DNA of 41,277 nt from a virus, in IMG/VR virus record IMGVR_UViG_3300046808_000091, positions 1-41,277 of that record. One strand, 5' to 3'. This document shows positions 1,010 through 35,760 of this stretch, one piece after another. Position 1 is the stretch's first letter; every line of letters starts with the position of its first letter. The translations under genes and the position numbers were made by a program. Under the pieces are notes generated by a model. It was not told where the DNA came from. It saw only the letters and a list, made by a program, of their open reading frames with translations, and did not search any database.

Positions 1010-2217
1010 CACAGCACCTCAACTTGCTTGCGCTGGGCATCATTCAGCCCAGCAAGGTAAGTAAGCTGGGCGGCGCGATCCGGCGTCATGCCCGCCCGGA
1101 TCAATGCCGCACCGTGGACGCTGGCGCGCGGCGTGATAAGAATTTTAAGCCCAGCTTTTGCCGCCGCCGCCCGCGCGCGCTGGACGCGCGCCGCCCAGTC
1201 AGGGTTGCCACAGCTTGCGGCTTCCAGCTTGTCGTCATAGGCCCAGTCAAGCCGCACCCAGCGATCTAGGAAAGCGCCGTCCAGCTTGTTGCGCCCGATG
1301 TATTCGGCGGTTGCGCCGTGACCCCATGTATTCCCGGCACCGATGCAAACAAAGTCAGCGTGGCGCGCGATTGTCTCACCCGTGGGCAGCGTCATAGCGC
1401 CATTATCCAGCGGTCCATTTAGGGTGGTGGTAAGGTTAGCGTCCGAACTGTCTACTTCGTCTAGCAAACACAAGCCGCCGTCACGATAAAACCGGGTGAA
1501 CGGCGTTTCATGATACGTCCCGGCAGCGTCCACGAAGCCCAGCAATTCGTGCGGTTGCATCATGGCACCCATCGCAGCGAATGACAGGCCCAGTGCTTCG
1601 GCAGCTTGGCGGGCGGCGGTTGTTTTGCCCGATCCGGCTGGGCCAGCGATCCAAGCGTTAAGACGCTGCCCGCTGGGCTTGCGGGCGGTCACGATTGAAA
1701 TCAAGTCAGCCAGCATTGGGTGCCGGGTGGGCGGCAATTCTGCGCCCAGCGGCTTGCCGTCACGGTCCACCACCAGCAAGCTAGGCGCGGCAGCTTCCAA
1801 GTCAGAAACGCGCGCTTCCAGCGCCGCCACAGCGTCGGCAGTGCCAGCGCCAGCACCAGCCAGCGCGCCAGCGATTGCGGCTGTGATTGTCTGGGCCAGT
1901 GCGGCAGCATCCACGCCGCCAGCGGTGGGTGCGGGTGCGGCGGCAGTCACCGGGCGGCGGTTGTCGAACAAGCCAGCGGGTGCGGTGGGTGCGGTGTAAG
2001 TCACGGTTGCGTCCTCTACGGTATCGGTTGCGGCGGCAGCGCCGCCCAGAATTGCGTCCACGTTCAAGCCAAGGTGGCGCGCCACGTCCACGGCGCGCGC
2101 TGATCCTAGCGATGCAGTGTCAACGCCGTGGGTGCGGCGGTATGCTGCCCAGTCAGGGTGGGCAGCGATGGCGCGGCGCAGTGCGGCGCGCTGGGCGTTT
2201 GAGACAGCGCCGCCCAT
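1009..2217 (-). CDS. CobS/MoxR-like AAA+ ATPase
   Basis: A 402-residue AAA+ ATPase. Visible motifs are Walker A GPAGSGKT (about 192-199), Walker B LLDEVD (about 251-256), a sensor-1-like GAGNT (about 293-297) and an arginine-finger-like LDGAFLDRW (about 312-320). This pattern matches the CobS/MoxR group, whose members remodel a partner protein, usually together with a VWA-domain protein. No VWA gene is seen here. The N-terminal half (about 55-145) is a low-complexity Ala/Thr/Pro linker followed by a short coiled coil. I chose the ATG at 2217, which overlaps the stop of the small upstream peptide; a longer frame to 2265 lacks support. Substrate is unknown. Confidence 0.85.
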   Translation of the reverse strand: MGGAVSNAQRAALRRAIAAHPDWAAYRRTHGVDTASLGSARAVDVARHLGLNVDAILGGAAAATDTVEDATVTYTAPTAPAGLFDNRRPVTAAAPAPTAGGVDAAALAQTITAAIAGALAGAGAGTADAVAALEARVSDLEAAAPSLLVVDRDGKPLGAELPPTRHPMLADLISIVTARKPSGQRLNAWIAGPAGSGKTTAARQAAEALGLSFAAMGAMMQPHELLGFVDAAGTYHETPFTRFYRDGGLCLLDEVDSSDANLTTTLNGPLDNGAMTLPTGETIARHADFVCIGAGNTWGHGATAEYIGRNKLDGAFLDRWVRLDWAYDDKLEAASCGNPDWAARVQRARAAAAKAGLKILITPRASVHGAALIRAGMTPDRAAQLTYLAGLNDAQRKQVEVL

Positions 2218-2306
2218 CACAGCACCCACAGCCCGAAGGCCAAAAGGCCAAACAAGACAGCGCACCCGGCGGCGGCTTCGATCCAGTCAAAAAGAGTCGG
2301 TTTCAT
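2217..2306 (-). CDS. small membrane peptide (29 aa)
   Basis: A 29-residue ORF beginning MKPTLFDWIEAAAG and continuing as one hydrophobic helix to the C-terminus. Its TGA overlaps the ATG of the AAA+ ATPase gene (TGATG), the same coupling used throughout this genome. An AGGA sequence lies about nine bases upstream of the start. These two points argue that it is translated. Function is unknown; it could be a single-pass membrane peptide or simply a leader ORF that sets translation of the ATPase. Confidence 0.5.
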   Translation of the reverse strand: MKPTLFDWIEAAAGCAVLFGLLAFGLWVL

Positions 2307-2380
2307 TGTCGGTCATCCTATGCAGAACCGCGCCACGGATTGCGGGCGGTGACCCAGACTTACACGATAAAATCAGTCAC

Positions 2381-2394
2381 AGTCAAGCTTGACT
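2381..2394. promoter_or_regulatory. palindromic operator-like site 1 (AGTCAA-GC-TTGACT)
   Basis: A perfect 14-bp palindrome 75 bp upstream of the leftward small-peptide/ATPase operon. The same half-sites with a two-base spacer recur at 3378-3391. Sharing of both half-sites and spacing suggests binding of one dimeric regulator. A TTGACT half-site could also serve as a -35 element, but I see no convincing -10 with it. Confidence 0.55.
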
Positions 2395-2425
2395 TCATGC
2401 ATTTAAAATCAACGTGTTGCGCGTA

Positions 2426-2439
2426 TTAACGGCCGTTAA
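2426..2439. promoter_or_regulatory. palindrome TTAA-CGGCCG-TTAA
   Basis: A perfect 14-bp palindrome in an A/T-richer stretch. The TTAA halves are six bases apart; the alphaproteobacterial CtrA box uses a seven-base spacing, so this is not a standard CtrA site. It could be an operator for a phage or host regulator of the leftward operon. Confidence 0.4.
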
Positions 2440-2529
2440 CACTCTCAAAAAAGCCCGAAAAAGTGCATTTTCGCCCCTAATGAAATCAAGGGTTTAAGAA
2501 TGTTAACAGGCGCAGCGCCATAAGACACC

Positions 2530-2611
2530 GCGCAAGGTGATTTACTACATCGCGCAGCAACTAAAGAGTTGCTCCCGCGCGCGCGGAGCGCTTGCGGTCG
2601 CAACCGTTGCC
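2530..2611 (+). ncRNA. structured element copy A (candidate RNA or replication/control site)
   Basis: Shares an identical 28-base block (2530-2557, starting GCGCAAGGTGATTTAC) with copy B at 3437-3464. After it comes a hairpin AGCAACT-AAAG-AGTTGCT (556-573 of this kilobase), a GC-rich inner hairpin around GCGC-GGA-GCGC (2581-2591), then GCAAC (2600-2604) and GTTGC (2606-2610). The four segments can pair 1:2, 2:3 or, weakly, 3:4. In copy B every segment has a different sequence yet keeps the same pairing. That points to selection on structure. Direction as RNA is assumed from the order of elements; the class is unrecognised. Confidence 0.6.
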
Positions 2612-2929
2612 CTAGGTGGTGACAGGTCAGCCAAGGATAGGGCGGCTTGTGCATCCATGTTTTGAGGATAGGCGCGGCAGCGCGCCAGAAAGCCCCAAAA
2701 TGCGAAGTCTGGTGTTTCCCATATGGTGACCGCCGAAAAGCGAGATGGCCCTCTGGCGGGCTTCCTATGCGCTCTGCGGGCAATATGGCTTTTCGGACAT
2801 ATCGGGATGCGGCGCTGTTTTGTGCGCTTCTGCGCACCAGCGCACAGAAACCGGAGCCGGTTGCCCGCATCTGTGCGCAGATGCGATTGTGCAGAAATGC
2901 ACATAATACCAATTGCAGACCAATGTCAG

Positions 2930-2995
2930 ATCGTTTGCATACAAACGATTGTGGCAAGTCAGGCTGGCAGCGCAGATCGTTTGCGTGCAAATAGT
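2930..2995. promoter_or_regulatory. pair of 20-bp operator-like sites
   Basis: Site one (2930-2949) is a perfect inverted repeat ATCGTTTG-CATA-CAAACGAT. Site two (2976-2995) matches it at 15 of 20 positions, including the whole left half ATCGTTTGC, and lies 46 bp downstream centre to centre. A third small inverted repeat GTTAT-GACTG-ATAAC follows at 2994-3008. Tandem degenerate operators of this kind are typical of phage repressors. No repressor gene is recognisable next to them. Confidence 0.5.
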
Positions 2996-3055
2996 TATGA
3001 CTGATAACGATACATGCGCCCGCCTGCGCCCGCCCGCTTGCGTCGCTGCGCTGCG

Positions 3056-3220
3056 CAGTCAGCACGCGACGCTGCACCAGTCAGTCAGCGCCAAGCGATG
3101 CGCGACGCATGGCGCGGCGCAGTCAGAACGCGGCACCAGTCATCGACGCGCAGTCATGGCTAGTCAGCGCAAGTCAGCGATAGGAAAGTGCAGCAAAATC
3201 AGTGACTTGCGCCGAGTCAG
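3056..3220 (+). repeat. cluster of AGTCA motifs in non-coding DNA
   Basis: I count nine AGTCA pentamers on the + strand in about 165 bp, several as AGTCAGC and one tandem AGTCAGTCA, against one TGACT. The stretch has no credible gene, so codon usage cannot explain it. The same pentamer is enriched genome-wide on the strand complementary to the coding strand. Candidate binding sites for a replication, recombination or packaging protein. Confidence 0.65.
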
Positions 3221-3240
3221 GGCTTGGGATCGGGTGCGCG

Positions 3241-3337
3241 ACCCCCACGGGGGTGGCTCGGCGGGGGGCAGGATGATTTTGACACCTCGACAGGGCGGCA
3301 GCTTAAAATTTTTCGCGCACCAAAAATTTTTTCGCAG
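3241..3337. other. GC palindrome followed by A/T tracts (candidate packaging or unwinding site)
   Basis: ACCCCC-AC-GGGGGT forms a perfect inverted repeat at 3241-3254, inside a G-rich run up to about 3272. It is followed by two direct A/T repeats, AAAATTTTTCGC (3305-3316) and AAAATTTTTTCGC (3323-3335). A GC palindrome upstream of the terminase genes can be a cos or packaging site; the A/T repeats could be an easily melted origin element. Neither role is proven. Confidence 0.35.
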
Positions 3338-3374
3338 TAATTTCAGCGGCATAAGGAGATGTTTGCAGTTCGTG

Positions 3375-3394
3375 CATAGTCAAGTTTGACTATG
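3375..3394. promoter_or_regulatory. palindromic operator-like site 2 (CATAGTCAA-GT-TTGACTATG)
   Basis: Nine-base perfect arms with a two-base spacer. The core AGTCAA-N2-TTGACT at 3378-3391 repeats operator-like site 1 (2381-2394). It lies 42 bp before structured copy B. A GTTAAC sequence between this site and copy B (3408-3413) also occurs at the same distance before copy A (2502-2507). Confidence 0.55.
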
Positions 3395-3436
3395 TAATCG
3401 CAAACTTGTTAACGAGCGCGATGCTTTAAGGCGTAT

Positions 3437-3520
3437 GCGCAAGGTGATTTACTACATCGCGCAGTCCACTAAAGAGTGGACAGCACGCGCAGGAGCGCTT
3501 TGCTGTCCCCAGTGGACAGG
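3437..3520 (+). ncRNA. structured element copy B (candidate RNA or replication/control site)
   Basis: Copy B starts with the 28-base block identical to copy A (3437-3464). The hairpin here is GTCCACT-AAAG-AGTGGAC (3464-3481). Segment two also pairs downstream, GGACAGC (3478-3484) with GCTGTCC (3502-3508), enclosing GCGC-AGGA-GCGC (3487-3498). Segment three pairs with segment four, CTGTCC (3503-3508) with GGACAG (3514-3519). The loop AAAG and the inner GCGC hairpin are conserved between copies while all four paired segments differ. The 3' end overlaps the -35 of the promoter serving the rightward arm, so it could also act at the DNA level. Confidence 0.65.
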
Positions 3521-3542
3521 TAGGGCGAAGTAACTCTATACT
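3513..3542 (+). promoter_or_regulatory. sigma70-like promoter for the rightward arm
   Basis: TGGACA (3513-3518) and TATACT (3537-3542) are separated by 18 bp and match the consensus at five of six positions each. It lies directly upstream of the first rightward gene at 3562, whose AGGAGGT ribosome binding site follows the -10. The -35 is shared with segment four of structured copy B, so formation of that structure or binding to it could control initiation. Confidence 0.65.
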
Positions 3543-3561
3543 CTGCTCAGGAGGTGCCATC

Positions 3562-3960
3562 ATGGGATCGAAGCTACAGTTGGTTCCTGCAAAGGACCGA
3601 GAAGGCGATGACGCAATTCAGCGGGCGGCGGTGCAGTCACGCTACGCGATGGATACGGTCAGTCAGAAGCTCTTGAAGGAGACAGGGCGGCGCGCAGCGT
3701 TGCGGCTCTTTGCGCTCTTGGGTGAGGACGACAAGTGGGATCAAGTTGGCCCACGGAATCAGATTGCCTTGATCGAACTTGCGCTGACTCGTGCCTTTGG
3801 CCGCGTTGAGACTGTGACTGCGGACGAGAAGCTCGTGGGCGACAAGGACAGCGTGGCTGGTGCGCTGCCGTCCCACTTGCGCGCTTTGGCTGGCAGCCTC
3901 GACTTGCCGGAGCTTCGTGGAGCAAAGGCAGCGACAAAAGTTGACGGCGAGAACAACTGA
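3562..3960 (+). CDS. hypothetical protein, possible small terminase-type DNA-binding protein
   Basis: A 132-residue charged protein, first gene of the rightward arm, with a strong AGGAGGT ribosome binding site at about 3549-3555. The middle (residues about 25-80) is predicted mostly helical and contains [17 protein letters not shown]; the C-terminal part is acidic and lysine-rich. Its position, alone between a promoter and a terminator and ahead of the large terminase, is compatible with a small terminase subunit or a regulator, but I see no diagnostic motif. Function is not assigned. Confidence 0.75.
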
Positions 3961-4184: not shown

Positions 4185-4282
4185 AGAAGCCAATGAAGTT
4201 TGCGCCCTGCAAGGGCTGCCCTACTCCTGCCAAATGCAAGGCTGCTGGTCGCTGCTTGGCTAAGGGCGGCTACAAGAAATGA
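4181..4282 (+). CDS. Cys-rich micro-protein (33 aa)
   Basis: A 33-residue peptide with the pattern C-x2-C-x5-C-x5-C inside [16 protein letters not shown], surrounded by lysines. The four cysteines could bind one zinc ion as a knuckle. It overlaps both neighbours by ATGA and ends in the same Lys-Lys stop style as the genes around it. Part of a conserved block of micro-genes upstream of terminase. No known function. Confidence 0.75.
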
Positions 4283-4425
4283 GCAAGGGTCTGTACGCCA
4301 ACATTCACGCGAAGCGTAAGCGCATTGAAGCTGGAAGTGGCGAGAAGATGCGGAAGGTCGGGTCTAAAGGTGCGCCGACCGCTGCCGCCTTCAAAGCCTC
4401 TGCCAAGACTGCGAGGAAGAAATGA
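4279..4425 (+). CDS. conserved phage micro-protein '[15 protein letters not shown]' type (48 aa)
   Basis: Starts [20 protein letters not shown] and contains GEKMRKVGSKGAPTAAAFK. Near-identical peptides are common in tailed phage genomes as unannotated or hypothetical proteins, which supports it as a true gene. It is strongly basic. It is coupled by ATGA on both sides. A role in DNA binding or virion assembly is possible but unproven. Confidence 0.85.
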   Translation: MSKGLYANIHAKRKRIEAGSGEKMRKVGSKGAPTAAAFKASAKTARKK

Positions 4426-4670
4426 TGACAAAAGGCGAATACAGGGTCGGCATCGGCTTCAATCCGTCTGGCGACGATATGGTCAGCCGTATCAAGCGCA
4501 CTGCGGCAAACTTCATCGACCTGATCGACGAGATTCCGGCACTTGGGGCAGAAACCGAGGAGCAGCTCCAGCGAACCGCTGAAGTCGCTCGCCTCAAGGC
4601 TCTGGCGCAGACCTCGATTGAGGAAGCGGCAATGTGGGCCGTCAAGGCAGCGACAAAAGGTCTGCCGTGA
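4422..4670 (+). CDS. Acb2/Tad1 hairpin-domain-like protein (candidate anti-CBASS/anti-Thoeris sponge)
   Basis: An 82-residue two-helix protein. The first helix covers VSRIKRTAANFIDLIDEI (about 21-38) and the second RLKALAQTSIEEAAMWAVKA (about 57-76). The pattern, a short N-terminal FNPSG loop, helix, acidic turn, then LA-T-x3-EAAMWAVKAATK, matches my memory of small phage proteins annotated with the Acb2/Tad1 hairpin domain (DUF7681). Acb2 proteins bind cyclic nucleotides and block CBASS; some also bind gcADPR from Thoeris. I cannot confirm binding residues. ATG at 4422 overlaps the upstream stop; ATG 4425 is an alternative with better ribosome-site spacing. Confidence 0.65.
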   Translation: MMTKGEYRVGIGFNPSGDDMVSRIKRTAANFIDLIDEIPALGAETEEQLQRTAEVARLKALAQTSIEEAAMWAVKAATKGLP

Positions 4671-4912
4671 AGAAGCGCGGCCCTTCGCTGTCAGTTGGCC
4701 GTGGTGAGAAGCTGCCCGTTTCCAAAGGGGCTGGGCTGACTGCGAAGGGCAGGGCGAAGTATAACGCTGCCACTGGCTCGAATCTGAAAGCACCTGCGCC
4801 AAATCCGAAGACGAAAGCTGACGAAGGGCGCAAAAAGTCCTTCTGCGCTCGGTCGAGCGGTTGGACTGGAGAGCGTGGCAAAGCTGCGCGGAAGCGATGG
4901 AACTGTGACTGA
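4667..4912 (+). CDS. conserved phage small protein, 'KGAGLTAKGRAKYN' type (81 aa)
   Basis: An 81-residue basic protein containing the conserved core KGAGLTAKGRAKYNAATGSN and then KTKADEGRKKSFCARSSGW. This core is found in many tailed phages next to terminase genes; the family is recalled as DUF6321-like but its role is unknown. I place the start at GTG 4667, overlapping the previous stop (GTGA), with AAAGG seven bases upstream; an in-frame start at 4634 would run far into the preceding gene. It overlaps the terminase start by 38 bases. Confidence 0.8.
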   Translation: MKKRGPSLSVGRGEKLPVSKGAGLTAKGRAKYNAATGSNLKAPAPNPKTKADEGRKKSFCARSSGWTGERGKAARKRWNCD

Positions 4913-25160: not shown

Positions 25161-27863
25161 ATGGCCGAGACAGAAAAGAAAACGGGACCAGTCAAGCTGC
25201 GGATTATCTCAGCTCCGCCACCTAAAGCTCCGCCAGTGGAGCCTGAAAGCACTCCGGGACGCTTCTTGGCCCGTAGTGCTGTAGACGCGCTGGTGTCCCC
25301 GCTTGACCTGCTGACTTACCCAGTCAGAGGACCAGCGCGGGCGCTCGGTTACGAGATGGCCGCACCGTCCACTGCAATCAGTGACTTCATGCGTGGCCTC
25401 GGCCTTAACGTCGCAGAAGAAGGCGAAGTCGCGGACACTCGCGCAGAGCAGATCGCCTCTGGCGTAGGTTCGGCGGCTGGTTTCTTGGTCCCCGGTCTGG
25501 GTGCTGCTCGTGCTGCGCAAGCAGTCGGTGGCCCGGTTGCGCGGGCAGTTGGCAGCTTTATCTCTGCGCCGTTCACCGCTGCGCCTGTTCGTGCCACTGC
25601 CGCAGAACTCGCTGCTGGTGGGGCCGCTGGTCTGGGCGGCGCGCTGGCAAAAGAAAGTGCAGCCGAGGGTGGCTACAGTCCGTTTGTGCAAGGCATGGCG
25701 CAGACTGGTGGAGAACTTCTTGGCGGCTTGACTGGCGCAGGCATCGGACCTGCCGTCTCTGCCGCAGGGCGCGGTATTGAACGCGCTGCTGGCGCAGTCG
25801 CTGACTTGTTCCCGCTGGCTGGACCTGTCTATCGCGGCGCTAAAGACGTGTTCCAAGGCATCGTAAATCCGCAGGACATGGCTTTCAGGCAGGCGTCTGA
25901 AGCGGTGCGCGGAGCTGTTGTTGATCCGACTGCTGCTGCGGCTGCCGTGGACTCAGCGTCGCTGACTGGTTTGCCGCCCATGCTTGCGCCGCGCGAACCA
26001 AAACTGATGGAGTTGGAGCAATCGCTTCTACGCGCCAACCCGGAACTGCGCGCTCTGCGTGACAAACAGCGCGCTGAAGCGACGCAGGCTGCGGAAGCCG
26101 TGTTGACTGGTATGGCTCCCGGCGACGTTCGCGCAGCCAGAGACTTTTTCACCACTCAGATCGACACGAACCGCCAGCAACTCGACAGTCTGCTTGCACA
26201 AGCGCAGACCGACGCAGAAGCGGCGCTGACTCGTGCTGGCCCCCGTACTGGCCGCAGCCCTGCTGAAAACTCCATCGTGTTCCGCGCCGAACTAGACAAG
26301 GCGTATAAGACTGCGCAAGAGAAAGAGCGCGACCTCTGGGGCGACGTGCCGATTACGCTGGTGACTGGGACAACGCAGAGCCAAGCTGCCTACAAAGCCG
26401 CCAAAGACTTTCTAGGCAAGACTGGTGCTGACTTGATGCCAGCCAGAGCCAAGACATTTTTGTCTCCGAAAACCGGGCGTTTTCGTGGGGACAAAACTAC
26501 CAGCGTTAAAGAGCTTCAGGGTCTACGCTCGCTGCTTCTGGAAGAAGCGCGTAACCTCCGTGCGTCGGGCAGCGACCGCGCTGCAACGGCAGCAGAAATG
26601 GTGGCCGCAGGTATTCTTGACGACATGGACGCAATTCCCGGCGTCAGCGGACCTCTTGAAGTGGCTCGCCAGTTTAGCCGAGACATGGCAGTCAAATTCG
26701 AGACTGGCACCATCGGCAACGTGTTGCGCACCACAAGAGGCGGCGTCGCTGCTGTCGCCCCGGAAGACACGCTGCGCCGCCTGCTTGGAACTCGGGCAGA
26801 GCCTCTTGCAGTCAGGGCTGGTGAGATGGAGGCGGCTACTGGTGGATCGCGTCAGGCTGCCGAAGCCGCGTCTGACTACCTGCGCAGCCAATTCCTTGAG
26901 GCTGCGGTTGATCCATCTGGAAACATACGTCTGCCCTCGGCCCAGCGTTACGTCGCCGCCCGCGAGGACATGCTGACGCGCTATCCGGCGCTCGGTAAAC
27001 TGTTCGATGACTCCATAGCGGCGGCGCAGACGGCGCAGGAAACTGGGACCACTGTAGAAGCGCAGATCGCGGCACTGTCCAAGACGCCACAAGCAAAGTT
27101 TGTAACCTCTAAAGTCAACCGCGAATTTGACTCCATTATCGGCAGCCAGAACCCGTCTTTCGAGGCATCAGAGATTGCGGCTATCGCGCAGCAGGATCAG
27201 ACCGGGCAGGCAATGGAAGGTCTGCGTCGCTCTGCTGTTGACTACCTTCTGCGCAAAACGATGGACCAGACTCCGACTGGAAAGTCAGCAGAAGGGACCA
27301 GACTAGCGACCGTGCTGGACGATCCCAATACTTTGGCAGCGATGGAGCAGTTCTTCACGCCTGACGAGCTACTTAACGTTCGCACTCTGGCAGACGAGTT
27401 GCGTGTCTGGCAGCAGAGCGCAGGCGCAAATGTCGAGGCACCAAATCTCGGCGGCGTGTTCCAGAAGCTACTGACCCTTGGCGCGGGTATGCTTGGAGCA
27501 AGAGCAGGACGAGCAGTTTCTCAAGGAAAGACAATCCAAGAACCAGCCCTCGGAGCTAGTATCAGCAGAAAACTGGCCGAGCGTTTGACCACAGAAGGAG
27601 CGCAGAAACTGCTTTCTGATGCTATTCAAGACGCCGATTTGATGCGGGCGCTGCTGCTTGGTCGCCGCTCTCCTGACGCGGAAGTCAAACGCGCTGACGC
27701 TATTCTGTCTTTGTGGATGCAGAACAATATGGCGCAGCTTACAGACGACAACGAAGACCCAATCACCGCGTTCTCGCGGGCGCTTGGTCTGGTCGAGGAG
27801 CCGCCGAAAGTCAAATTCAGGCCGCTGGAGCTGACTATCGACAACCCAAGCGGCACTGACTAA
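25161..27863 (+). CDS. large internal virion/DNA-ejection protein (900 aa)
   Basis: A 900-residue protein, the largest in the window. The first 240 residues alternate Gly/Ala-rich amphipathic or membrane-like helices (GVGSAAGFLVPGLGAARAAQ and ELLGGLTGAGIGPAVSAAG). The rest, about 260-880, is long alpha-helical. This layout fits podovirus ejection proteins that form a trans-envelope channel. It is the last rightward gene, and its TAA overlaps the stop of the leftward primase gene by a few bases, leaving no room for an intergenic terminator. Confidence 0.8.
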   Translation: MAETEKKTGPVKLRIISAPPPKAPPVEPESTPGRFLARSAVDALVSPLDLLTYPVRGPARALGYEMAAPSTAISDFMRGLGLNVAEEGEVADTRAEQIASGVGSAAGFLVPGLGAARAAQAVGGPVARAVGSFISAPFTAAPVRATAAELAAGGAAGLGGALAKESAAEGGYSPFVQGMAQTGGELLGGLTGAGIGPAVSAAGRGIERAAGAVADLFPLAGPVYRGAKDVFQGIVNPQDMAFRQASEAVRGAVVDPTAAAAAVDSASLTGLPPMLAPREPKLMELEQSLLRANPELRALRDKQRAEATQAAEAVLTGMAPGDVRAARDFFTTQIDTNRQQLDSLLAQAQTDAEAALTRAGPRTGRSPAENSIVFRAELDKAYKTAQEKERDLWGDVPITLVTGTTQSQAAYKAAKDFLGKTGADLMPARAKTFLSPKTGRFRGDKTTSVKELQGLRSLLLEEARNLRASGSDRAATAAEMVAAGILDDMDAIPGVSGPLEVARQFSRDMAVKFETGTIGNVLRTTRGGVAAVAPEDTLRRLLGTRAEPLAVRAGEMEAATGGSRQAAEAASDYLRSQFLEAAVDPSGNIRLPSAQRYVAAREDMLTRYPALGKLFDDSIAAAQTAQETGTTVEAQIAALSKTPQAKFVTSKVNREFDSIIGSQNPSFEASEIAAIAQQDQTGQAMEGLRRSAVDYLLRKTMDQTPTGKSAEGTRLATVLDDPNTLAAMEQFFTPDELLNVRTLADELRVWQQSAGANVEAPNLGGVFQKLLTLGAGMLGARAGRAVSQGKTIQEPALGASISRKLAERLTTEGAQKLLSDAIQDADLMRALLLGRRSPDAEVKRADAILSLWMQNNMAQLTDDNEDPITAFSRALGLVEEPPKVKFRPLELTIDNPSGTD

Positions 27864-29932
27864 GAGGCGAAGCGCCTGACATGGAAGAACCGCACAAGGG
27901 GAAGCCCGCTGCGGTTCGATCCTGTCTCAATCGTGATGTTGTAGCCACCGTCTGTGTTCCGCCCATTTGGCGGGAAGATGTTGGCGTAGAAGGCACTCAG
28001 ATCGACAGCGTTTGAGCGCAGCGCCATTTGGCGGTCATAGAGGCCAGTACCTGCCAGCTTCTCTTTCAGATGGTCGTGGACAGTGCGCGCAGACCATGAG
28101 CCTGTGCCAAGGTCCGCAACAGCGTCAAAGAGCGGCTTGTAGGTCATTTCCATGCGCAGGGCCACGACAGCCTCGTCTTCGCCTTCTGGGACGATCCTGA
28201 CGCCCGGTAGCAGCACTGGCGCTGTGATGGTGTAGCCTTGGTTGCTGACGCCCAGCGTCTCAGTCACAATGTCGAAGGTAAACACCTTGTCGTCGTCGAT
28301 AGAGCGGGCCATGAGGATGCGCAGCTCTAGCTGGTCCGTCTCTTGGTTCCGAGTCAGCGTCAGCAGCGTGTCTGGTTCAGCCTGAATGTTGCTGGAGCCA
28401 CGGGGCTGGTTCCCGTTTTTCGTGTTGTGGTGGATGATGACAATGGCGGCTTTAATCTCCGCGTCTCTAATCTTGGCGATGATGTCGAAGACTGCCGACG
28501 TGTCCTCGACGCTATTCTGATCGCCACCCGGCATCGCCTTAGTCAGCGTGTCGATGACGATCACGCCCAGCGATTTCTCGCCTTTTTTCTGCCACCACAC
28601 CTCTGTCGCTTTGATCTGCTCGACAAGATTGATCCTCGAAGTCTCGTCCAGCAGGTTGAGGCTTTCCTCGACTGTGAAGAACGGGAAGTTATTGTGGTCT
28701 GTGTAAAGGTCGCCCGCAGGGTCGTGATACTTCCGCCATGCGACCAAACGCTTTTTGATAGCTGTCTGGCTCTCAAGGGCGAAGTAGAGGACAGGGCGGC
28801 GCTCAGTGACAGTCAGGTTGTCGTCGAAATTTAGCCCAGCCGCAATGTGCATAGCCAAAGTCTGACTGACCAACGTCTTTCCGGCTTTCGGATCGGCGGA
28901 AATCAGGGTGACTTCGCTGGCGTGGTAGATCGGGTGCATGATAAATTCCTCAGTCAGAACGTCCAGCTTCTCAAAGCCGAAGTAGCCGCGCTTGTTGGCG
29001 AAGGGGAAGTCATCGCCGTAGGCATCGGCGCGCACGATGGGAAGCTGCGACATTTCATTGCGAACAGCCGGGAACATCGCCGCAGCCATCTGCTTGATCG
29101 TGTCTGTCGCTGCCTCACGCAGTTCTTCTGTCTTGGCGGCGACGTTGTATTTGGCGTGGCCGCTAGACACGATCCTAGTCAGTTCGCCGCCCTTGTCGGC
29201 CATGATGGGCTGCCAACGGTCGTGGCGGGGGTGCTGCGGGTTGGCGGCGACCGACGCCTGCATCAACTCCATCACGGCGGCTTGGACGCGAACCAGCGGC
29301 TCTCCCCCGGCAGACAGCTTGGCCGCGATCTGCGTCAGGCTGTCGTGGAAGTCATCACCAGTCAGGACGTTCTGGCGCAGCACGTCCAGCGTCGTCGCTG
29401 ACTGCGCGGCTCTGGCGGCTTTCAGGCTCTCGACCAGCGCAGCAGGCGCAGTCGCCAGCCCCTCGCGCTCAATCGTGTAGCCCGGTGACGGCGGCAGAAC
29501 GATGTAGCCGCCCTCGCCTTTTACTTCGACGCCTTTCGACGGCTTGCAGTTCGGAAACTCCTTGGCGCGGAACAGGTAGTGCCGACCGCCATTTCGAGTG
29601 GCGTGGACGCGGGTTTGCGGCAAGAGGCCAGCCCGCTCCAGATCGGCCACATACGCTTTCGCAGCAGCGCCTGCGTCGCCTTCCTTGTAGGTGTCCGCGT
29701 CGATAGCGAACAGACCTGCCTCTGCGCCCATTCGGCCACCAATGCCGTGCAGGCGATTGCCAGCAGCCTTGAACATGGCCGTGATAGCGTCAGGGTCAGT
29801 GCTGGCGTCATAGAAGCCGTTTTCCGTCAACGGGCGCTTATCTTCGCCTGTCGGGAACACCGGGACGCCAGCCTCGGCCCACTCAATTGCTGCCTCAATA
29901 AGATCAGCGACAACAGACTTCTGCATGTTCAT
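27860..29932 (-). CDS. bifunctional primase-polymerase/helicase (PrimPol + RepA-like ATPase)
   Basis: A 690-residue fusion. The N-terminal AEP-type PrimPol domain (about 10-175) has FAIDADTY (Asp 78 and 80) and NGGRHYLF (His about 118) as likely metal and catalytic residues. A linker follows, then a RecA-like ATPase (about 310-570) with Walker A ADPKAGKT (about 346-353) and Walker B VIVIDTL (Asp about 461), and IIHHNTKNGNQPRGSS resembling hexameric RepA/AAA_25 helicases. It should prime and unwind at the phage fork. Start ATG at 29932, overlapping the resolvase stop (ATGA). Confidence 0.92.
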   Translation of the reverse strand: MNMQKSVVADLIEAAIEWAEAGVPVFPTGEDKRPLTENGFYDASTDPDAITAMFKAAGNRLHGIGGRMGAEAGLFAIDADTYKEGDAGAAAKAYVADLERAGLLPQTRVHATRNGGRHYLFRAKEFPNCKPSKGVEVKGEGGYIVLPPSPGYTIEREGLATAPAALVESLKAARAAQSATTLDVLRQNVLTGDDFHDSLTQIAAKLSAGGEPLVRVQAAVMELMQASVAANPQHPRHDRWQPIMADKGGELTRIVSSGHAKYNVAAKTEELREAATDTIKQMAAAMFPAVRNEMSQLPIVRADAYGDDFPFANKRGYFGFEKLDVLTEEFIMHPIYHASEVTLISADPKAGKTLVSQTLAMHIAAGLNFDDNLTVTERRPVLYFALESQTAIKKRLVAWRKYHDPAGDLYTDHNNFPFFTVEESLNLLDETSRINLVEQIKATEVWWQKKGEKSLGVIVIDTLTKAMPGGDQNSVEDTSAVFDIIAKIRDAEIKAAIVIIHHNTKNGNQPRGSSNIQAEPDTLLTLTRNQETDQLELRILMARSIDDDKVFTFDIVTETLGVSNQGYTITAPVLLPGVRIVPEGEDEAVVALRMEMTYKPLFDAVADLGTGSWSARTVHDHLKEKLAGTGLYDRQMALRSNAVDLSAFYANIFPPNGRNTDGGYNITIETGSNRSGLPLVRFFHVRRFAS

Positions 29933-35343: not shown

Positions 35344-35479
35344 GGTATTCGCACAGCTCCTCAGCTCCAACATGGCAGGCCAGCTCATGGGCGTGGCGGT
35401 GGGCCTCTACGGCGTTCTGGTTCCCGATGAAAGCGCACACAGCCGCGACGATCAGAATGAGGCGGTCAGCGGTGTTCAT
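35333..35479 (-). CDS. small putative exported protein (48 aa)
   Basis: Reads MNTADRLILIVAAVCAFIGN and ends EELCEYHAP. A short hydrophobic stretch near the start (LILIVAAVCAFI) looks like a signal-anchor; the C-terminal part has two cysteines and several histidines (HRHAHELACHVG). AAGGAG lies close upstream of the ATG. It overlaps the stop of the zinc-ribbon gene (ATGA) and the start of the 62-aa gene. Function unknown; metal binding possible. Confidence 0.5.
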   Translation of the reverse strand: MNTADRLILIVAAVCAFIGNQNAVEAHRHAHELACHVGAEELCEYHAP

Positions 35480-35760
35480 GGCTCCTTCCCCTCAATAAGC
35501 TGGGCGATCTGGTTGGCCAAGAAACCGATCTTCAGGTTCGTGCCAGTCACCCGATGGGCGATGGCGTGTAGGGCTTCTTCGGTGAGTTCAAAGGTCGTGG
35601 ACCTTCCGCCGCATGAATCACAGTCGCGGCGTCTCCTGACTGCGTGGGCGGCGACACCAAACGCTTCCATGTGGACGGGCCTACTGTCAGCAGTCGCGCC
35701 CAGACTTTTTTCGCCGCATAACGGGCAATGCATATGGTTGATTTTCAATGCTCCGCTCAT
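35476..35760 (-). CDS. NrdR-like zinc ribbon protein, no ATP-cone (94 aa)
   Basis: Residues about 11-55 reproduce the NrdR zinc ribbon pattern: CPLCG, TADSRPV, RRRRDCDSCGGRSTTFEL. The following ATP-cone of real NrdR repressors is missing; instead a short helical tail (TEEALHAIAHRVTGTN) follows. It may bind DNA or act as a decoy at NrdR-type sites of nucleotide reductase operons. GGGGAGAAAG precedes ATG 35760. Zinc-ribbon similarity is seen in sequence; function is inference. Confidence 0.75.
   Translation of the reverse strand: MSGALKINHMHCPLCGEKSLGATADSRPVHMEAFGVAAHAVRRRRDCDSCGGRSTTFELTEEALHAIAHRVTGTNLKIGFLANQIAQLIEGKEP

Follow-up and report, generated by a model that had tools for sequence, protein, structure and literature searches.

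What kind of signal is formed by a structured element that occurs twice in a viral genome, with paired segments that differ in sequence from one copy to the other and still pair? The question is raised by IMG/VR virus record IMGVR_UViG_3300046808_000091, the whole of which, 41,277 bp, was analysed and is termed the window. A leftward arm of replication-type genes (Prim-Pol/helicase, DNA polymerase A, SNF2-like helicase and AAA ATPase) and a rightward arm of terminase and structural genes, starting at 3562, diverge from a large non-coding gap (2266-3561). Both copies lie inside this gap, copy A at 2510-2610 and copy B at 3416-3517. Most likely the element works like a stem-loop site that is read by its shape. 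Is it DNA or RNA that folds, and what reads it?

The copies share an identical block of 28 nucleotides, 2530-2557 in A and 3437-3464 in B, which occurs twice in the window and in none of 100 shuffles; the window holds no third copy of the element. An earlier reading of this DNA, referred to here as the original prediction, had placed the copies and the shared block, given both an AAAG loop and an inner GCGC hairpin, and had them pointing the same way with arms able to pair within each copy. All of this holds, both copies being on the + strand. Each begins with a hairpin module, P0 (2510-2533 and 3416-3440), assigned by alignment, which in A has the form GCGC..CCATA..GCGC and is conserved in all relatives. 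The P1 hairpin (2530-2556 and 3437-3463), with a GCGC stem and UUUAC in the loop, lies within the 28-nucleotide block. Arm 1, the AAAG loop and arm 2 occupy 2557-2572 and 3464-3481, followed by a central hairpin, P3 (2573-2599, placed by folding, and 3482-3504), and by arms 3 and 4 (2600-2610 and 3505-3517). The arms are placed by sequence and covariation, with the fold in addition for arms 3 and 4 of B. In A they read GCAACT (2557-2562), AGTTGC (2567-2572), GCAAC (2600-2604) and GTTGC (2606-2610); in B, GTCCACT (3464-3470), AGTGGAC (3475-3481), GTCC (3505-3508) and GTGGAC (3512-3517). The arms do differ, but to call them entirely different, as was first done, goes too far, since the inner end of the stem reads ACT-AAAG-AGT in A and B alike. 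The proposed pairing among four segments is likewise narrowed. Arm 3 of B has only four nucleotides, and in several relatives arm 3 of copy A does not repeat arm 1, which leaves arms 1, 2 and 4 as the universal set.

Ten related viral contigs (labelled L006, L007, L008, L009, L011, L012, L013, L014, L016 and L022) have the element upstream of their terminase genes. Of eight records searched from end to end, seven have two copies each, no more and no fewer, and an 11-kb fragment has one; there are none elsewhere. The paired copies of each record share one orientation. Among the relatives the B arms are invariably GTCCAC/GTGGAC. The A arms are GCAAC/GTTGC in the window, L006 and L007, GCACC/GGTGC in L008, GTGGC/GCCAC in L009 and L022, GTGAC/GTCAC in L012, and GTGTC/GACAC in L014 and L016. 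In all six stem states the sequence of arm 2 is fully complementary to that of arm 1, and so is that of arm 4, apart from a single base in one of them. Counted over the five outer pairs, Watson-Crick pairing is 30/30 for arms 1 and 2 (1:2) and 29/30 for arms 1 and 4 (1:4). In a permutation test only one of 720 assignments, the true one, attains the observed pairing, for 1:2 and 1:4 separately. These statistics come from hand-placed arms, a MAFFT alignment of the whole element misplacing arm 2, and the relatives are few and related, so that the independent changes are also few: six stem states with at least five changes. As far as sequence can tell, nothing speaks more strongly for the importance of both arm 1 pairings than a three-way change. 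The A copies of L014, L012 and L009 differ from one another in arm 1 at a single position, with T, A and G, respectively, and the complement (A, T and C) is present in arm 2 and in arm 4 alike. Concerted, compensatory change, as the original prediction proposed, was thus looked for in homologues and is confirmed, the stems of the relatives adding covariation of their own. The comparison indicates that base pairing is under maintenance, that the compensatory changes are real and recur in relatives, and that arm 1 has kept its ability to pair with either arm 2 or arm 4, two pairings that exclude each other.

Could this complementarity owe its persistence mainly to mutation, by template switching between arms, rather than to selection on function? 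Single template-switching events can create and maintain perfect stems, and template switching alone can keep stems complementary (PMC8794818); the 1:2 stems are indeed perfect, with no G-T intermediates. However, repeated events would be needed for arms 2 and 4 each to track arm 1, the loops and P1 are conserved, and genome after genome has exactly two copies at the same sites amid turnover of the surrounding DNA. We regard an explanation mainly by mutation as very unlikely.

In P1, 92% of cells are paired and the covariation score exceeds those of all 500 shuffles, a control that the kinship of the sequences inflates. In the central hairpin of B the letters change while the pairing is kept (window, L007 and L008). 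Within a genome the P1 block of A is 85-100% identical to that of B, compared with about 67% between phage groups. The loops seen are TTTAY in P1 and CTAAAG, CTATAG, CTACAGG or GACCAA in hairpin 1:2, the last being common to A and B of L008; within one phage the loops change together and the stems do not. The likeness of A and B in P1 within a phage fits a phage-specific factor that reads loops and shape; it would equally fit gene conversion between A and B. A kissing contact between the loops of P1 and 1:2 (CUUUA with UAAAG) was considered and rejected, as it works in two relatives and fails in other groups. The reported GTTAAC does lie 28 and 29 bp upstream of the 28-nucleotide blocks, but is confined to the window and its two closest relatives and absent from the other groups.

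A close named phage is Sinorhizobium phage phiM5 (TerL 47.6% identity, AAA ATPase 57%). Neither phiM5 nor the distant TerL relatives carry a recognisable copy of the element, named phages gave chance matches only to a query of 2400-3700, and no TerL relative was found in bacterial genomes. A pattern search was made with A-type arms; among the matches listed, all but that in L065 were taken as chance, without one-by-one inspection, and the match in L180 falls inside an apparent gene. Arrays of the form X, X′, X′ in the distant relatives L201, L209, L237, L240, L245 and L249 were set aside as other repeat arrays. GTTAGT..ACTAAC..ACTAAC arrays stand directly left of the packaging motif described below, at L237 2717, L245 4287 and L249 1586, and are a possible analogue.

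Arm 4 of B overlaps, as had been predicted, the -35 box of a sigma-70-type promoter of the terminase operon, TGGACA-18-TATACT (3513-3542, + strand), which has a spacer of 17-18 in relatives; the L008 counterpart of TATACT is TAGACT. TATACT is also found 3′ of copy A in L008; A is otherwise without such a promoter. This arrangement may explain why the B arms are constant, since arm 4 holds most of the conserved -35 box and arms 1 and 2 must follow, and why the A arms, with no such promoter, drift. A sigma-70-type promoter was not found upstream of A or B in a scan that would miss a phage-specific promoter. The conserved promoter lies downstream of B and its transcript would therefore be without the element.

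With a promoter after B and palindromes upstream of both copies, the arms might instead be half-sites of a regulator that binds double-stranded DNA and acts on the terminase promoter and, through copy A, on the leftward genes. The covariation would then come from half-site symmetry together with shifting protein specificity. An operator-like palindrome, AGTCAAGCTTGACT, lies left of A at 2381-2394 (five matches at two or fewer mismatches against 0.36 expected) and another, AGTCAAGTTTGACT, left of B at 3378-3391; L008 has this second palindrome before both copies. The GCGC boxes are 20-23 bp apart, near two helical turns, with AT-rich centres, and the two strands are equivalent. Three features are hard to reconcile with such a regulator. 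The arms of A and B differ within one genome, so that one protein could not read both; the distance from arm 1 to arm 2 is not constant (5 or 6 for the conserved arms of B), nor is that from arm 2 to arm 4; and P1 and P3 covary as well. On balance we think it rather unlikely.

Folding with RNA parameters gives z-scores for the + strand of -2.0 to -5.8 (B copies) and -0.9 to -3.5 (A copies), and the minus strand folds about equally well. Where both alternative folds can be imposed they are within 6 kcal/mol of each other, mostly within 4. None of 57 pairs in hairpin 1:2 is G-T, and wobble-type mismatches in P1 point to both strands. A call of the strand by G-U pairs was dropped, as both strands fold alike and the P1 wobbles conflict. 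Taken with the position of the promoter, the folding and G-T evidence leans towards DNA without settling the choice between DNA and RNA. Of the original suggestions, a switching RNA and a cruciform or replication site with a co-evolving protein as its reader are both tenable. Two other RNA roles receive no support: a scan of 2200-3700 found no terminator-like site (a hairpin followed by a T run) such as an attenuator would have, and antisense pairing of A with B is at odds with the difference between their arms.

What would read such a structure in DNA? By analogy with known systems we propose, with a probability of roughly one in three, that A and B are DNA stem-loop replication-initiation sites for the phage's own Prim-Pol primase/helicase. 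The structure would form when the region is unwound or supercoiled and would serve as a start site for replication by this enzyme, like the pRN1 origin or the RSF1010 ssi hairpins; the loops would carry phage-specific recognition and the stems would need only to pair. The proposed reader is encoded at 27860-29932 on the minus strand, with profile matches to PF09250 (Prim-Pol, E 2.6e-23) and AAA_25 (helicase, E 3.6e-24). Both domains are present in 5/6 element-bearing records, the sixth being a 23-kb record, and phiM5, in which no element was found, has no match. We take this co-occurrence as support, not proof, because the terminase small subunit has a similar pattern. The lack of G-T pairs and the equal folding of the strands are as expected for DNA. 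The cumulative GC skew turns in the gap holding A and B, with gene direction as a confounder.

The Prim-Pol plasmid pRN1 has an essential stem-loop origin of about 100 nt, conserved in structure and poorly in sequence, where one stem change is tolerated only together with a change of its partner; its authors see similar stem-loops in some phages (PMC4234260). The phage element resembles this origin in length (~100 nt), in the conservation of structure rather than sequence, in the importance of stem symmetry and in the PF09250 Prim-Pol replication protein of its genome. It differs in having several hairpins and two copies, and in the helicase domain, whereas pRN1 has one large stem-loop beside its replication gene. 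Since the element (2.5-3.5 kb) is far from the Prim-Pol gene (27.9-29.9 kb), we do not file it as a member of the pRN1-type origins. RSF1010 also uses two small hairpins, ssiA and ssiB, and the primase that reads them is of the archaeo-eukaryotic type (PMC4434180).

Several points weigh against a replication start. RSF1010 has one ssi site per strand (PMC4434180), each 40 nt long and followed, 3′ of its hairpin, by a GTG start, whereas A and B are larger and both on the + strand. The pRN1 protein has a different type of helicase and the pRN1 stem-loop adjoins its own gene. A pure origin is not obviously in need of both 1:2 and 1:4, the stems are short for cruciform extrusion, and it is not the Prim-Pol alone but also the terminase small subunit that co-occurs with the element.

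The main rival to a Prim-Pol site is a leader RNA. A and B would be cis elements of the put or nut kind in a rightward transcript, where a nascent fold of two stem-loops modifies RNA polymerase, alone or with a phage factor, with 1:2 formed first and displaced by 1:4 as a timed switch. The two exclusive pairings suit a switch, B is oriented in keeping with the late operon, and the loops of A and B agree within a phage as those of nut sites would. HK022 likewise has two copies of put RNA per genome (PMC9378689). Several copies are predicted to fold, over about 70-83 nt, into two stem-loops separated by one nucleotide, as is HK022 putL (~70-80 nt), and CUUUA in stem-loop I is common to putL and most copies; some A copies prefer the 1:2 fold over this layout. 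But the transcript of the conserved promoter would begin beyond B, the scan for sigma-70-type promoters found none ahead of either copy, A leads into non-coding DNA, and folding shows no strand preference. The put motif GGCGGG..GGCAAT is absent, and a covariance model built from eight put sequences, which scores known sites at 54-98 bits, has no match at A or B in any genome, so the suggestion of a put-like RNA fails as far as HK022 membership is concerned. Rfam gave no match at gathering or permissive thresholds in the window, L007, L008, L009 or L014. Lambda nut (boxA/boxB) also comprises two hairpin sites per genome with phage-specific loops; here, unlike lambda, no N-like gene is recognised and the element is larger, with several hairpins. 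A leader RNA is possible but somewhat doubtful, and the element is filed with neither the pRN1-type origins nor the put RNAs.

The position of the copies raises a further issue. A C-tract/G-tract motif at 3240-3286 (+ strand), of the form GACCCCC..GGCGGGGGCAG..ACACC, stands between them; most of the distant relatives scanned (L184-L260) have it upstream of TerL. The annotated direct terminal repeat of phiM5 (MF074189) ends inside the same kind of motif at 312-357. By this analogy the motif is probably the packaging cut site of the phage group, with a cut at about 3281/3282, and the likely genome end would thus fall between A and B. The copies could then be packaging or concatemer-processing signals that flank the terminal repeat and serve either as binding sites of the terminase small subunit or as cruciforms to be cut. 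The likely end between the copies, the terminase gene adjoining B and the co-occurrence of the small subunit would agree with this; that subunit is probably the first gene 3′ of B (3562-3960, + strand), assigned by position without a family match. On the other hand, distant relatives keep the cut motif without the element, and HNH/AP2-like homing-endonuclease genes, named by reading the sequence and absent from the window, lie between the motif and B in L007 (~4208-4733) and L008 (~3375-3898) and change the distance. The idea of a fixed cut distance from each copy was dropped, as these insertions alter the spacing. We consider a packaging role unlikely.

The DNA stem-loop site remains our preferred reading. 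A broader description can be offered tentatively, that of an undescribed family of two-state structured elements, exactly two per genome and flanking the packaging end, in which arm 1 would have to be capable of pairing with two arms and the letters would otherwise be free. Such an element may be a shape-read switch that couples late transcription, replication or concatemer processing.

Other features of the window are recorded here. A small gene at 4422-4670 encodes an Acb2/Tad1 hairpin domain (PF24729, E 8.4e-14) of an anti-defence sponge family; in L006 a related stretch is placed elsewhere, 3′ of the terminase gene. An NrdR-like zinc-ribbon protein (PF22811, E 8.9e-10) is encoded at 35476-35760 on the minus strand. 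Several tandem 23-bp GC-rich units at the left record end (1-80) are likely an assembly break point. Over the whole window GTCAG is enriched on the non-coding strand in both gene arms, where this is probably codon-linked, and is dense in the intergenic gap. A tRNA/tmRNA search found none.

How Prim-Pol phages start replication has been little tested. If the element acts as DNA and the proposal is true, this would be a clear natural example of a Prim-Pol phage in which hairpin shape and not letters sets the start of replication; if it acts as RNA, a group of uncultured phages would have a new leader of the antitermination type. In this phage group the element is located where the genome probably ends, and its three-way complementarity lends itself to a clean mutational test. 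The patterns in these sequences point to a signal read by its shape, the stem letters varying between phages while the pairing stays.
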